This document shows, one piece after another, positions 76 through 10,752 of a stretch of 64,000 nucleotides of DNA. Source of the DNA: Thalassovita sp. Its GTDB lineage: Bacteria; Bacteroidota; Bacteroidia; Cytophagales; Flammeovirgaceae. Numbering within the stretch: position 1 is the first letter of the stretch; each line of letters opens with the position of its first letter. The position numbers and the translations under genes were made by a program. The notes below the pieces were generated by a model. The model saw only the letters and a program-made list of their open reading frames with translations, did no database searches and had not been told where the DNA came from. The stretch is taken from NCBI GenBank assembly GCA_002729595.1, contig PBYL01000086.1:1-64000 (forward strand), read 5' to 3'.

Positions 76-1209
76 CTAGGTCTTTTCTCTTAAATCCCTT
101 TCCTCTACCAACCCCTCCATTTTACTGCTTAAGAGGGGATTGTCATAGGACTGGTCTTTATCCTCACGCCAAGGTAATTGATCCAGTTGTTTTTCCAAAG
201 CTAATTGTTTGGATTTCATAAAAGTATCCCATGGAGTCTTTCCATTGCAATGTTTTCCTGAATGTGTCCTTTGATTGTTGTACCAATTCAGCCAAGCATC
301 AAGTTCTAATTGCAGTTCTTCTATTGATCGAAAAATCTTTTTGCGAAAAACCACAGCGTAAAATTCATCTTGCATAGTTCTATGGAACCTTTCGCATATA
401 CCATTTGTCTGTGGTGATTTAGCTTTTGTCCTAGTATGATCTATATCTTCCAGATCAAGATATAATTGATAGGGATGTTTTTCGATTTTACCACAGTACT
501 CTGTACCTCTATCTGTCAATATTCTGAGTAATCGAACATCTTGTTCTTCATACATAGGCAACACCCTATCGTTAAGCAAATCAGCTGCTGTAAGGGCATC
601 TTTGTTAGGATATAATTTTGCATGAGCAACTTTACAGTAGGTATCAATATAAGTTTGTTGATAAATTCTTCCTACTCCTTTTACATTACCTACATAATAA
701 GTGTCTTGACTGCCCAAGTAACCTGGGTGATGTGTTTCTATTTCACCTTTAGCCACTTTTTCTTCTTTAGCTCTCTCTAATGCTTGTACTTGAGATTCAG
801 TTAATACTCCTCCTTCCTGAGAAACTCTAACTTCTAAAGCTTTCAAACGTTTTTTAAATGATTCCAAATCATTCCGTAACCAGATACTGCGAATACCACC
901 TGGAGAAACTGTAATACCCTTTTTAGCCAACTCATTACTTGCGCGCACTTGACCAAAGGCAGGGTATTCAAAGGCCATTGCTACTACTTGTTCCTCAATA
1001 TAAGGATCTACACGATTTTTATGATTTGGCTTTCGTTTAGATACTTCCTGTAAAGCAGCCTCACCACCTGTTTCATACAGTTCTTTTATCCTATAATAGC
1101 TATCTCGAGAATAACCTATCGTGCGACAGGCTTGAGATACATTACGTAATTGTGCAGCTAGATTTAATAATCCTAGCTTTGTTTTAATTAACTTGTCATT
1201 TGTAGTCAT
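76..1209 (-). CDS. IS481-family transposase
   Basis: This is a DDE transposase of 377 residues that would cut and join the ends of its own element. The first 110 residues hold a helix-turn-helix region (around 20-60) and a second helical DNA-binding segment. The integrase core follows with the catalytic acids in expected contexts: D189 in YIDTY, D233 in LTDRG and E273 in NGICERFH, giving 39 residues between the last two acids. The conserved SPQTNG and the downstream NNQRTHSG motifs are typical of the IS481/IS3 group. The frame is open over its full length, so the copy may be active. The start is the ATG just inside the right inverted repeat. Confidence 0.93.
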   Translation of the reverse strand: MTTNDKLIKTKLGLLNLAAQLRNVSQACRTIGYSRDSYYRIKELYETGGEAALQEVSKRKPNHKNRVDPYIEEQVVAMAFEYPAFGQVRASNELAKKGITVSPGGIRSIWLRNDLESFKKRLKALEVRVSQEGGVLTESQVQALERAKEEKVAKGEIETHHPGYLGSQDTYYVGNVKGVGRIYQQTYIDTYCKVAHAKLYPNKDALTAADLLNDRVLPMYEEQDVRLLRILTDRGTEYCGKIEKHPYQLYLDLEDIDHTRTKAKSPQTNGICERFHRTMQDEFYAVVFRKKIFRSIEELQLELDAWLNWYNNQRTHSGKHCNGKTPWDTFMKSKQLALEKQLDQLPWREDKDQSYDNPLLSSKMEGLVEERDLREKT

Positions 1210-7057: not shown

Positions 7058-8290
7058 ATGCAACAACTCGACTCTTCTCAAAATCTTAGAAAATGCCGCC
7101 TTATAATGGTGAGTGATCAAAACAATAACAAGTACTACGAAATGTCTGAAAAACCAGGTGGAATGTTTTCGGTAGTTTATGGAAGAGTTGGTGCGAAAGG
7201 TGCCGAAGCAGAATATCCGGTTTCTCAATGGAAGAAGAAATACAATGAGAAAATAAGAAAAGGTTATCAAGATCAAACACATCTTTTTAAAGATAAAAAA
7301 GAGAATGTGATTGACTTTGACGATATCACTGAAGCAACTGTAAATCTTTTAATGAAAGACTTGTACCAATACTCAAACAAGTCGATGGAAGATCATTACA
7401 ATGTAACGGCCGACCAAGTTACCAAACAGCAGTTAGAAGAAGCTCAGACTTTATTGAACGACCTTGCCGGTAGAATAAAACCAAGAATGCAGCGTCCGGC
7501 ATTTAATGTTTCTCTTCTTAAGTTGTATGGCATTATTCCTAGAAAAATGTCTAATGTAAAAGACCACTTGGTTACTACTAAAATGACACTCGATGAGATT
7601 AATAAACTCATTGCCAGTGAGCAAGAAACCTTAGACGTAATGCGCAGCCAGTTTGAGATGGTTGCTCAAAATGATGATGCAGAAGAAGTGGAGAAAATCT
7701 CTATTCTTAAAAAACTGGGAATTACCATTGAAGAAGAACACGCATCAAAAAGCATTAAAAGAATTAAGAAAATGATGGGCGTTGATAAAGACCTTTTTTA
7801 TAAAGCTTACAAAGTTTCCAACATTAGAACAGAAGGCAATTTTAACAATACACTTGCTACAAAGAGAAAGAAAAGTACAGAGCTATTCTGGCATGGTAGC
7901 CGAAACGAAAACTGGATGTCTATACTAGGAACAGGGCTTGTGTTGAGACCAACCAATGCCATTATTACCGGTAAAATGTTTGGTTACGGATTGTACTTTG
8001 CAGATAAGTTTAAGAAGTCGCTCAACTATACTTCTTACCGTGGAGCTTACTGGTCTGGCGGAAACTCAGACAAAGCTTATCTGGCTATCTACGAAGTGCA
8101 CACAGGCAACCAGTTAAAAACCAAAAACCACGAATCTTGGCACTATAACTTAGACGAAACCATGCTAAAGTCTAAAGGAGATTACGATAGCCTTTATGCT
8201 AAAGGTGGGGCTGACTTAATCAATAATGAATACATCATTTATAATGAAAACCAGTGTACAGTTAGATACTTAGTCGAAATCAGAAAATAA
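7058..8290 (+). CDS. Bacterial poly(ADP-ribose) polymerase (WGR + PARP catalytic domain)
   Basis: This 410-residue protein would transfer ADP-ribose from NAD+ to proteins or nucleic acid in the cytoplasm. Residues 10-90 form a WGR domain with YGRVG at 41-45 in place of WGRVG; in eukaryotic PARPs this domain senses DNA breaks. Residues about 110-240 are helical and match the place of the PARP regulatory domain. The ADP-ribosyltransferase domain follows with all three catalytic residues in PARP1-like contexts: H279 in FWHGSR, Y313 in GYGLYFAD and E391 in NEYIIY. Glutamate at the last position is the residue needed for chain elongation in known PARPs, so polymerase rather than mono-transferase activity is expected. 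There are no zinc fingers or BRCT domain. A small gene follows after 8 bases. PARPs are sporadic in bacteria, so horizontal spread is likely. Confidence 0.93.
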   Translation: MQQLDSSQNLRKCRLIMVSDQNNNKYYEMSEKPGGMFSVVYGRVGAKGAEAEYPVSQWKKKYNEKIRKGYQDQTHLFKDKKENVIDFDDITEATVNLLMKDLYQYSNKSMEDHYNVTADQVTKQQLEEAQTLLNDLAGRIKPRMQRPAFNVSLLKLYGIIPRKMSNVKDHLVTTKMTLDEINKLIASEQETLDVMRSQFEMVAQNDDAEEVEKISILKKLGITIEEEHASKSIKRIKKMMGVDKDLFYKAYKVSNIRTEGNFNNTLATKRKKSTELFWHGSRNENWMSILGTGLVLRPTNAIITGKMFGYGLYFADKFKKSLNYTSYRGAYWSGGNSDKAYLAIYEVHTGNQLKTKNHESWHYNLDETMLKSKGDYDSLYAKGGADLINNEYIIYNENQCTVRYLVEIRK

Positions 8291-8298
8291 AACCTACT

Positions 8299-8577
8299 AT
8301 GAACGATAGAAAATTAAATCCGCTTACTGTTGGTGCTGTAGAAGAAGCAGCTTTGTTTTTAGCCAAAGAAAAAGGCCATGTTACCACACTCGATATCAAA
8401 GAGTATTTACGAAGCGAAGGCTATTTTGCCATGCAATCAGATGTTTCTGAGTTTATGAAACAACTCGCGATAGTAGATTGCGAATGGAGCTATTTCTTTA
8501 CAGGTAGTTATCGTATCTATTTTAACATGCAATTTGCATTTCAGTACGATATAGGAATCGTATCTTCATTAAATTAA
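8299..8577 (+). CDS. Small PARP-linked protein, possibly winged-helix
   Basis: This 92-residue product is encoded 8 bases after the PARP gene and ends before a strong terminator, so the two should form one transcript. The first 65 residues predict as helices with a helix-turn-helix-like layout: KGHVTTLDIKEYLRSEG then AMQSDVSEFMKQLA. An aromatic beta-like end follows (WSYFFTGSYRIYF). This fits a small winged-helix fold that could bind DNA or the polymerase. I recognise no named family. The context suggests a regulator, target or DNA-damage adaptor of the PARP; this is inference. Confidence 0.7.
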   Translation: MNDRKLNPLTVGAVEEAALFLAKEKGHVTTLDIKEYLRSEGYFAMQSDVSEFMKQLAIVDCEWSYFFTGSYRIYFNMQFAFQYDIGIVSSLN

Positions 8578-8590
8578 AAATATTAGCTCA

Positions 8591-8630
8591 ATGCCTTGGT
8601 ACAGATTTTCAGTGCCAAGGTATTTGTTTT
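8591..8630 (+). terminator. Terminator after the PARP operon
   Basis: The stretch 8591-8602 pairs with 8612-8623 in a 12-bp stem containing two G-U pairs (core CCTTGG/CCAAGG), followed on the plus strand by TTTGTTTT. It lies between convergent genes and can end the PARP transcript; the complementary strand lacks a good T-run. Confidence 0.7.
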
Positions 8631-9015
8631 ACTCTTTGTACTCAAACCCATCGGCAATTGGAAGCATTTCCAAATCACTTATCCAGTACTTTTGCGTTTG
8701 GCAATAACTTTTGAGGTCATGATATATACCTTTAATTGACTCTTTAGATTTCCCAAAGTCGAAATTGAAAAAACCAGTACCTGAACCTCCACCAATTATT
8801 TGTATTCTTAAATAATTTTCACCTTCAATCTCTTCTTTAAAAATCACAAAAGTGAGCGTAAAAGACGAGTTATTTCTAAAGCTATATTGCTCTGTAACAA
8901 TAATGAGCATCTTATTTTTATTCATCAAATACACTGGACTATAGTTCAACTTTAAAAATCCAGCAATGTATTTTTCTGCCTGCTCTCCTTTTATTAGAAA
9001 TTGTCCTGCTTTCAT
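8629..9015 (-). CDS. Cytosolic protein of unknown function
   Basis: This 128-residue protein has no signal peptide or membrane segment. It predicts as an alternating beta-strand protein with a glycine-rich turn, IIGGGSGTGFFNFDFG (residues about 73-88), then a helix and a short C-terminal tail. The composition and length suggest a single compact domain. It is a lone gene between the PARP unit, which runs towards it, and the divergent BlaI regulator. No family was recognised. Confidence 0.68.
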   Translation of the reverse strand: MKAGQFLIKGEQAEKYIAGFLKLNYSPVYLMNKNKMLIIVTEQYSFRNNSSFTLTFVIFKEEIEGENYLRIQIIGGGSGTGFFNFDFGKSKESIKGIYHDLKSYCQTQKYWISDLEMLPIADGFEYKE

Positions 9016-9139: not shown

Positions 9140-9154
9140 TTGTATATTCATTTT

Positions 9155-9529
9155 ATGGAAGATTTAAGTAAAAATGAAGAATATATTATGTCTATCCTTT
9201 GGCGATTAGAAAAGGGATTAGTACGAGATATAATGGCACAAATACCTGAGCCAAAACCACCTTATACTACAGTCTCTTCAGTAGTGAGATTATTGGAGAA
9301 AAAAGGATATGTAGACCACAAAGCATATGGCAAGACTCACGAATATTATCCATTAGTGCAGCAAGACGAATACAGAAAAACCAGCTTTAAGCAAATGGTG
9401 AAACATTTCTTTGGTGGTTCGGTCCAAAATGTGCTTTCGTTTATGGTAGAAGAAAAAGAAATTTCTGCCAAAGAAATCGATGAGCTTAAAAAGTTGGTAG
9501 AGTCTTACGAAAACAAAGACCAGTCATGA
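9155..9529 (+). CDS. BlaI/MecI/CopY-family repressor
   Basis: This is a winged-helix repressor of 124 residues, the normal size for the family. The N-terminal domain has the family pattern NEEYIMSILW, then PPYTTVSSVVRLLEKKGYVDHKAYGKTHEYYPLV, where TTVSS is the recognition helix. The C-terminal helices would form the dimer and carry the protease cleavage region. I chose the ATG at 9155 rather than a TTG at 9140, because the TTG lies inside operator 2. The stop codon overlaps the start of the M56 protease gene (ATGA), the standard coupling for these pairs. Two operators precede the gene, so it should repress itself. Confidence 0.93.
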   Translation: MEDLSKNEEYIMSILWRLEKGLVRDIMAQIPEPKPPYTTVSSVVRLLEKKGYVDHKAYGKTHEYYPLVQQDEYRKTSFKQMVKHFFGGSVQNVLSFMVEEKEISAKEIDELKKLVESYENKDQS

Positions 9530-10752
9530 GCTCGGTTTTTAATTACTTTTTAGAAGCCAGTATTTGCCTGTGTTTCTCATTTGTATTTTTCAAGTTGATG
9601 CTAGAGAAACTCACTTTTTTCAACTGGAATAGGTTTGTATTTTGGTTGTTAATTTTAGCGAGTGTCGGAGCTCCCCTACTATCAATTTCGGTTGAGCAAA
9701 CAGTTACTGAGCTTCCAGAAAAGATATTAAATGGGATTCATACATTAGAAAATTCTACTTTTTCAGAACAGCTAAATCAAGGTCAAATATTTAACTGGCA
9801 AATTGGGCTTTTTATCATTTATATAATAGGTGTATTGATGACATTTTTCCGACTATCTATTCAACTTTATTGGGTATTTTTAAAATTAAATATTGCTGAA
9901 AAGCTAAAATACAAGAATTATCAACTGGTAATCCATCCCAATTTTAAGTATGCATCTTTTTTTAATTATATATTTCTACCCTCCTATGTTGAACAAGATG
10001 TGGAGCAACAACAAATTTTGTTGCATGAATCTGCACATGTAAAACTGTATCACTCAGCAGATGTATTGGCTATGCAGTTGTTAAAAGTGATTTTTTGGTT
10101 TAATCCAGTGCTGATTTTACTAGACAAAATGCTTAGGGAAATACACGAATTTCAGGCAGATTTTGAAGTGACAAAGTCTTATTCTCAAATAGATTATAGC
10201 AAATTACTAATCAAGCTTGCTGCTCAAAAGCATTCATTACACCTAATGAATTTTTTCAATTTTTCTCAAACTCAAAAACGAATAGTTATGATGAACAAAG
10301 CAAATTCAAAGAAACTGCTAAGAGGCAGGTTTTTATTCGCTATTCCATTAATTGGATTTTTTATGATGCTCTTCTCTTTCGATTTTCAAGGTATGAACCA
10401 GAAAGACCTCGAAGGATCATGGACGGGGACTAATCTCAGTTTTAAACAAACGCAAGGTCCAGATGTAGCAGCTATGGTAGAAGGTGGCAAATCTTTACAC
10501 ATAGGCGGAATTTTGATGTTAAAAGATGATTACACCTACCAAATTAAAGAGCCAAGTGGAAGTATTAATGGAAACGGTAACTGGAAAATGGACAACACTT
10601 CCACATTTACTACCACCGATGCCAATGGCGAAGTAACCACCTATAAAATTGTTGATTTGGAAAGTGATAAACTGATTACTACTCACAAAGTAAGTATGGA
10701 TACACCAATTGGTAAAGTGGTGGGCGAAATTACATTGAGCTATAAACGCTAA
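9526..10752 (+). CDS. BlaR1-like M56 membrane metalloprotease with C-terminal beta domain
   Basis: This 408-residue protein is expected to cleave the co-encoded repressor when triggered. Four membrane segments lie near 10-27, 35-53, 88-110 and 270-288. The zinc motif HESAH (H167, E168, H171) and the downstream HEFQAD (E208) are intact, as in M56 peptidases. The usual penicillin-binding sensor is absent. Instead the region after about residue 290, beyond the last membrane helix, is a beta-rich 115-residue domain beginning DLEGSWTG that resembles lipocalin-like domains (GSW opening, paired strands). It probably reads a different signal in the periplasm. No beta-lactamase gene is nearby. Confidence 0.88.
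   Translation: MSSVFNYFLEASICLCFSFVFFKLMLEKLTFFNWNRFVFWLLILASVGAPLLSISVEQTVTELPEKILNGIHTLENSTFSEQLNQGQIFNWQIGLFIIYIIGVLMTFFRLSIQLYWVFLKLNIAEKLKYKNYQLVIHPNFKYASFFNYIFLPSYVEQDVEQQQILLHESAHVKLYHSADVLAMQLLKVIFWFNPVLILLDKMLREIHEFQADFEVTKSYSQIDYSKLLIKLAAQKHSLHLMNFFNFSQTQKRIVMMNKANSKKLLRGRFLFAIPLIGFFMMLFSFDFQGMNQKDLEGSWTGTNLSFKQTQGPDVAAMVEGGKSLHIGGILMLKDDYTYQIKEPSGSINGNGNWKMDNTSTFTTTDANGEVTTYKIVDLESDKLITTHKVSMDTPIGKVVGEITLSYKR

Follow-up and report, generated by a model that had tools for sequence, protein, structure and literature searches.

The window analysed here, a 64,000-nucleotide stretch of a Thalassovita sp. contig, carries a PARP gene on its forward strand and, directly behind it, a second and much smaller gene that the initial annotation had overlooked (Table 1). 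The second open reading frame begins 8 nt past the PARP stop codon and encodes a protein that we refer to as the partner. The hairpin behind the two genes adjoins the end of a convergent gene (8629-9015). A complete integrase-core (rve) transposase-like gene (76-1209, minus strand) occupies the window's left edge. A BlaI-type repressor and a BlaR1-type M56 peptidase, a common arrangement in Bacteroidota, are encoded as a pair at 9140-10752 on the plus strand.

Table 1. Features of the PARP-partner locus, in window coordinates.
Feature	Position	Strand	Basis
PARP gene (WGR - helical - PARP catalytic), 410 aa, ATG start	7058..8290	+	ORF list, Pfam, family alignment, profile comparison
WGR domain, residues 18-74, motif YGR	7109..7279	+	Pfam PF05406, 26.2 bits, E 8.6e-6, cut-off 22
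Helical domain of the PARP regulatory type, residues 90-232 with approximate limits	7325..7753	+	Alignment to PARP1/PARP2, without Pfam call
PARP catalytic domain, residues 235-409	7760..8284	+	Pfam PF00644, 81.9 bits, E 5.9e-23, cut-off 26.7
Catalytic His279 codon	7892..7894	+	Alignment of relatives, motif LFWHGSR
Catalytic Tyr313 codon	7994..7996	+	Alignment of relatives, motif GYGLYFAD
Catalytic Glu391 codon	8228..8230	+	Alignment of relatives, motif NNEYIIYN
Partner gene, 92 aa, predicted winged helix, uncharacterised family	8299..8577	+	Conserved position, co-occurrence, fold model, dN/dS
Hairpin and U-rich tract, probable transcription terminator for both genes	8586..8627	+	MFE -19 kcal/mol, z -4.1 vs shuffles

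Both the WGR and the catalytic domain of the PARP gave Pfam matches above the cut-off, and the three residues assigned as the catalytic triad in the initial annotation (H279, Y313 and E391) lie in the correct motifs; the identity of the gene as a PARP was thus upheld in the profile search. The triad showed no variation across 26 aligned relatives, phage proteins among them, and the same was true of the YGR form of the WGR motif. YGR is the usual bacterial form according to PMC5966428. A profile of the 26 relatives gave human PARP2 as its top match (6e-36), followed by PARP1, and its alignment with PARP2 ran as a single stretch spanning the WGR domain, the helical region and the catalytic domain. 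Because the family profile aligns through to PARP1/2, a helical regulatory domain is present despite the absence of a Pfam PARP_reg call. The lack of zinc fingers, remarked on initially, was borne out and is usual among bacterial PARPs. With its H-Y-E catalytic domain, WGR domain and helical domain, the protein can be placed by sequence among the clade 1 PARPs. The intact triad makes poly(ADP-ribose) chain formation plausible, in that E391 would permit chain synthesis. Searches of the PARP protein against NCBIfam and PADLOC returned no family match and no defence-system match, respectively.

A list of 2014 holds 28 bacterial PARPs, mostly of WGR plus PARP composition (PMC4245714), and 72 were treated in 2018, including a Cytophagales clade with the WGR plus PARP_cat architecture (PMC5966428). 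A restricted genome scan yielded 33 relatives of the window PARP, and 37 of the 341 Cytophagales genomes had a PF00644 match. A tree built from 109 PARPs placed 42 host PARPs of Bacteroidota in one clade (SH-aLRT 95); the window protein grouped inside it with the Cytophagales WGR-PARPs, beside three PARPs of its own family. Phage PARPs fell outside this clade and two Clostridium PARPs fell among the phages, the rooting being arbitrary, so that the direction of phage-host transfer cannot be read from the tree. Within these Bacteroidota the PARP appears to be an inherited lineage that has undergone losses, and not a set of scattered recent imports. The window PARP is therefore an ordinary member of an already described Cytophagales group; with such proteins described in 2014 and 2018, numerous relatives and a partner gene adjacent, the special interest first attached to it as a rare stand-alone, full-length copy does not hold.

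The partner gave no significant match in Pfam and no family in NCBIfam or PHROGs; the DNA-binding domain of ArgR was matched weakly. Its AlphaFold2 model (pLDDT 90.9) is a winged helix, judged by the helix order and the beta wing. The Foldseek neighbours in the PDB were mostly winged-helix domains, with the Hop2-type 2mh2 first, none below E 1e-3, and they include PadR, Fur, ArsR and MecI types. Homologues of the partner have in common the motifs TTTLxVKxxLR, a central Q...S and a W....NGxxRxY wing; T30, L31, K34, R38, Q46 and R72 are among the conserved residues. The window protein is acidic (pI 4.8), its third helix included, and in most family members the third helix is neutral to acidic while the overall pI ranges from 4.6 to 10.9. 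An acidic third helix makes ordinary sequence-specific binding of the DNA major groove by that helix doubtful; the partner may bind protein, or DNA through the conserved K34, R38 and R72. Both genes are under purifying selection, with dN/dS values of 0.04-0.19 for the partner and 0.04-0.12 for the PARP in species pairs of relatives.

The partner is tightly associated with the PARP across genomes. Of 37 host loci, 30 carry a homologue less than 400 nt downstream of the PARP and in the same orientation. Among the 341 whole genomes of the order, it was found in 32 of the 37 with a PARP as compared with 12 of the 304 others (Fisher p 8e-30), and counting by genus gave 18 of 22 PARP-bearing genera as compared with 2 of 99 others (p 1e-15), both tests treating genomes as independent and ignoring relatedness. 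A relative of the same genus (92% complete) has neither gene. In 8 of the 32 two-gene genomes the partner is unlinked, lying on another contig or 160 kb off, with fragmented assemblies possibly concealing linkage in some; retention of both genes in these eight genomes despite the lack of linkage means that linkage drift alone is no explanation. When the partner profile was scanned over the phylum, four genomes outside the class matched, and in all four a gene for a full-length PARP immediately precedes the partner on the same strand, one of these genomes possibly being the source of a seed row (L023), which would leave fewer than four truly independent cases. The PARP-partner association is thus well supported.

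Exceptions occur on both sides. Five PARP genomes gave no partner call, and in three of these (G542, G577 and G590) the PARP match is weak or unlike. The other two, G512 and G517, have good PARPs in fragmented assemblies in which the partner was not found. No partner was seen near the PARP in the Clostridium loci or in six plasmid loci of other phyla. Conversely, eleven genomes keep a clear partner with no PARP detected, a figure that may miss distant PARP-free members since most of the seed sequences of the profile came from genes next to a PARP. A divergent PARP hidden beside the partner in such genomes was considered and rejected: inspection of ten loci revealed nothing beyond a WGR remnant (G650), and a whole-genome protein search agrees. 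The literature searched, which was mainly open-access papers without preprints, yielded no report of a PARP-associated winged-helix protein, of the pairing or of its occurrence in phages.

In several lineages the partner is longer, about 300 aa, and bears a WGR domain C-terminal to the winged helix. Pfam recovered this WGR domain in 7 of 11 long partners, and a long-partner model (pLDDT 92.5) matched in Foldseek the solved Bacteroides fragilis protein 2ra8, a WGR protein. After the WGR domain, long partners (L024:11477-12349, L005:3526-4473, L132 and others) continue for some 150 aa to the C-terminus in an uncharacterised, beta-rich region for which no clear structural counterpart was found.

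The Spirosoma group presents a series of versions of the same locus, running from full PARPs through 277-279 aa forms and a 207-aa remnant (G710) to partner-only loci. The 277-279 aa proteins (L130:1727-2557, minus strand, and L131:2954-3790, plus strand; genomes G692 and G307) are without the helical domain, and their catalytic Tyr is replaced by His (GYGIHF). Between the two, dN/dS was 0.086 at a dS of 0.8, which argues that they are not simply decaying and that a catalytically altered WGR protein seems to be kept; on this one pair, they probably represent a PARP, inactive or altered, that is conserved next to the partner. Spirosoma-type partners without a PARP scored a mean of 92.9 bits against the family profile, compared with 118.6 bits for PARP-linked ones, a comparison biased by the presence of some PARP-linked rows in the seed alignment.

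Relatives of the PARP are encoded on 167 viral contigs. WGR-PARPs are far commoner in large phage contigs (L139-L218) than the few of older surveys, and their best identity to the window protein is 49%. In the cultured Cellulophaga phage phi4:1, a partner homologue is the gene directly downstream of the PARP and belongs to PHROG 33401, of unknown function; in phage LR756500 the partner lies about 9 kb from the PARP. Of 84 phage PARP loci, only 7 had a partner homologue within their 6 kb flanks, and a scan of the viral contigs with a single phage partner sequence matched only the query itself. Phage PARPs, of which phi4:1 gp031 is an example (PMC4245714; a viral PART family is treated in PMC9503650), have the same WGR-PARP architecture as the window PARP and differ from it in lying outside the host clade and, at most loci, in having no partner within 6 kb.

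The initial annotation had noted no gene able to reverse the modification. This stands for the window, where no eraser was recognised among the proteins examined, but not for the genome. The search for PARG and macrodomain genes elsewhere in the assembly (78% complete) found a PARG_cat_microb gene on another contig (C272), three Macro genes and three ADP_ribosyl_GH genes. Judged by gene presence, the genome would thus hold a gene set for complete reversible poly(ADP-ribose) metabolism. PARG was present in 16 of the 37 PARP genomes of the order as compared with 17 of the 304 others (p 4.5e-9); it is enriched with the PARP yet not obligatory. Microscilla has a macrodomain-like gene in the neighbourhood of its PARP (L013:14563-15015), as do two Clostridium contigs (L032 and L033) whose PARPs group with those of phages.

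The closest described proteins are the bacterial PARPs of clade 1.1, which come from the same order and agree with the window PARP in having a WGR, a catalytic and a helical domain without a PARP_reg call, the YGR motif and the H-Y-E triad (PMC5966428; bacterial PARPs also in PMC4245714); the account of this clade in PMC5966428 says nothing of a partner. The DNA-dependent human enzymes PARP2 and PARP1 (clade 1) align with the window protein end to end over the WGR, helical and catalytic domains and likewise have the H-Y-E triad. Unlike them, the window PARP has neither zinc fingers nor a BRCT domain nor a basic N-terminus, and the adjacent gene specifies a separate winged-helix protein; the DNA dependence of the window PARP is suggested by homology. 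According to PMC5966428 and PMC4245714, the PARP of Herpetosiphon aurantiacus (HaPARP) is a characterised bacterial enzyme that makes long chains; HaPARP and the PARP of Clostridioides difficile CD160 are characterised, DNA-active WGR-PARPs with a PARG in the same genome, and belong to other clades (2.3 and 2.2, respectively) than the window PARP.

HPF1 is a cofactor of eukaryotic PARP1/2. A likeness of the partner to it would be one of working only, each being a dedicated protein that goes with a DNA-dependent PARP. HPF1 was not found among the 50 structural neighbours listed for the partner, a 92-aa winged helix that differs from HPF1 in size and fold.

That a winged-helix protein accompanies the PARP across many Bacteroidota and some phages suggests that bacterial PARPs probably have a dedicated partner. 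We consider it fairly probable that the locus encodes a DNA-break-responsive PARP together with a dedicated accessory winged-helix protein, and infer an accessory role, a physical interaction and a DNA-break trigger. By homology to PARP1/2, the WGR domain would engage broken DNA, and the helical domain would restrain the catalytic domain until a break is bound; the catalytic domain, once released, would modify acceptors using NAD+. The winged-helix protein would most likely bind the PARP and/or DNA near the break and steer or license the modification, standing in for the additional modules with which eukaryotic PARP1 reads DNA and for cofactors such as HPF1. The PARG, macrodomain and ADP-ribosylglycohydrolase enzymes encoded elsewhere in the genome could take off any polymer that the PARP makes. 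More tentatively, and as a wider generalisation for which we see a reasonable though not a strong case, a two-component PARP may be common to Bacteroidota and some phages, in which a winged-helix cofactor, sometimes with a WGR domain of its own, sets the site or target of the PARP and would be a functional, non-homologous counterpart of the eukaryotic PARP cofactors.

The fold of the partner is also the commonest one among bacterial regulators, and the adjacency of the two genes, the PadR, Fur, ArsR and MecI types among the structural neighbours and the weak ArgR matches would all suit a transcriptional regulator of the PARP operon, for example an autorepressor, with no part in ADP-ribosylation. 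We regard this as unlikely. A regulator would usually lead its operon, whereas the partner comes after the PARP at the host loci examined in which the two genes are adjacent; its persistence apart from the PARP in eight genomes would be unexpected; the third helix of the window protein is acidic; and a regulator has no need for the WGR domain, a break-binding module in PARPs, that the long partners add. The patchy distribution, the phage copies and the small size of a protein beside an NAD-using enzyme raise another explanation, a toxin-antitoxin or anti-phage module in which the small protein holds off an NAD-consuming PARP effector, and systems of this kind often have ADP-ribosyltransferases as their effectors (PMC9503650). 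Such a module is improbable here, as the supposed antitoxin sometimes lies on another contig or 160 kb off, the PARP occurs with no detected partner in the two fragmented assemblies mentioned above, PADLOC gives no match for it, the genes around it are metabolic or regulatory rather than defensive, and the host PARPs form a single coherent clade instead of a pattern of rampant transfer.

The initial annotation had in effect treated the PARP as standing alone, which would make the small neighbour a hitch-hiker. The PARP by itself does have every catalytic feature, some PARPs have no detected partner, and known bacterial PARPs were active when assayed without one (PMC5966428 and PMC4245714). Genome-scale co-occurrence that includes unlinked cases, the predictions borne out in four of four genomes outside the class and the phage pairs far exceed what hitch-hiking would produce, and we hold this reading to be very improbable. 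A PARP with an accessory winged-helix protein, as we favour, would offer a concrete handle on bacterial PARP function in the form of a second protein to study. If the partner controls the PARP, helper proteins for DNA-dependent PARPs would exist outside eukaryotes too. With the pair common to phages and hosts, a role in replication, repair or conflict becomes testable, for instance in phi4:1.

Some further arrangements around PARP genes were seen. L237:1709-4039 and L238:1624-3960 each encode a second PARP, 777-779 aa long, whose N-terminal tail is helical-repeat-like and which resembles a long Microscilla PARP mentioned in PMC5966428; fusion of PARP and partner as an explanation of the 777-779 aa proteins (genomes G494 and G448) was rejected, the tail being helical-repeat-like and not the partner. 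At two Saprospiraceae loci a SWIM zinc-finger gene lies directly upstream of the PARP (L007:8126-9748, with a Pfam match, and L005:8-1642). PARPs of other phyla are carried on very large non-mobilizable plasmids of 0.3-0.9 Mb (L230-L235), where some of them adjoin repair genes, for example those for a helicase, SSB, a Rad52-like protein or an exonuclease.
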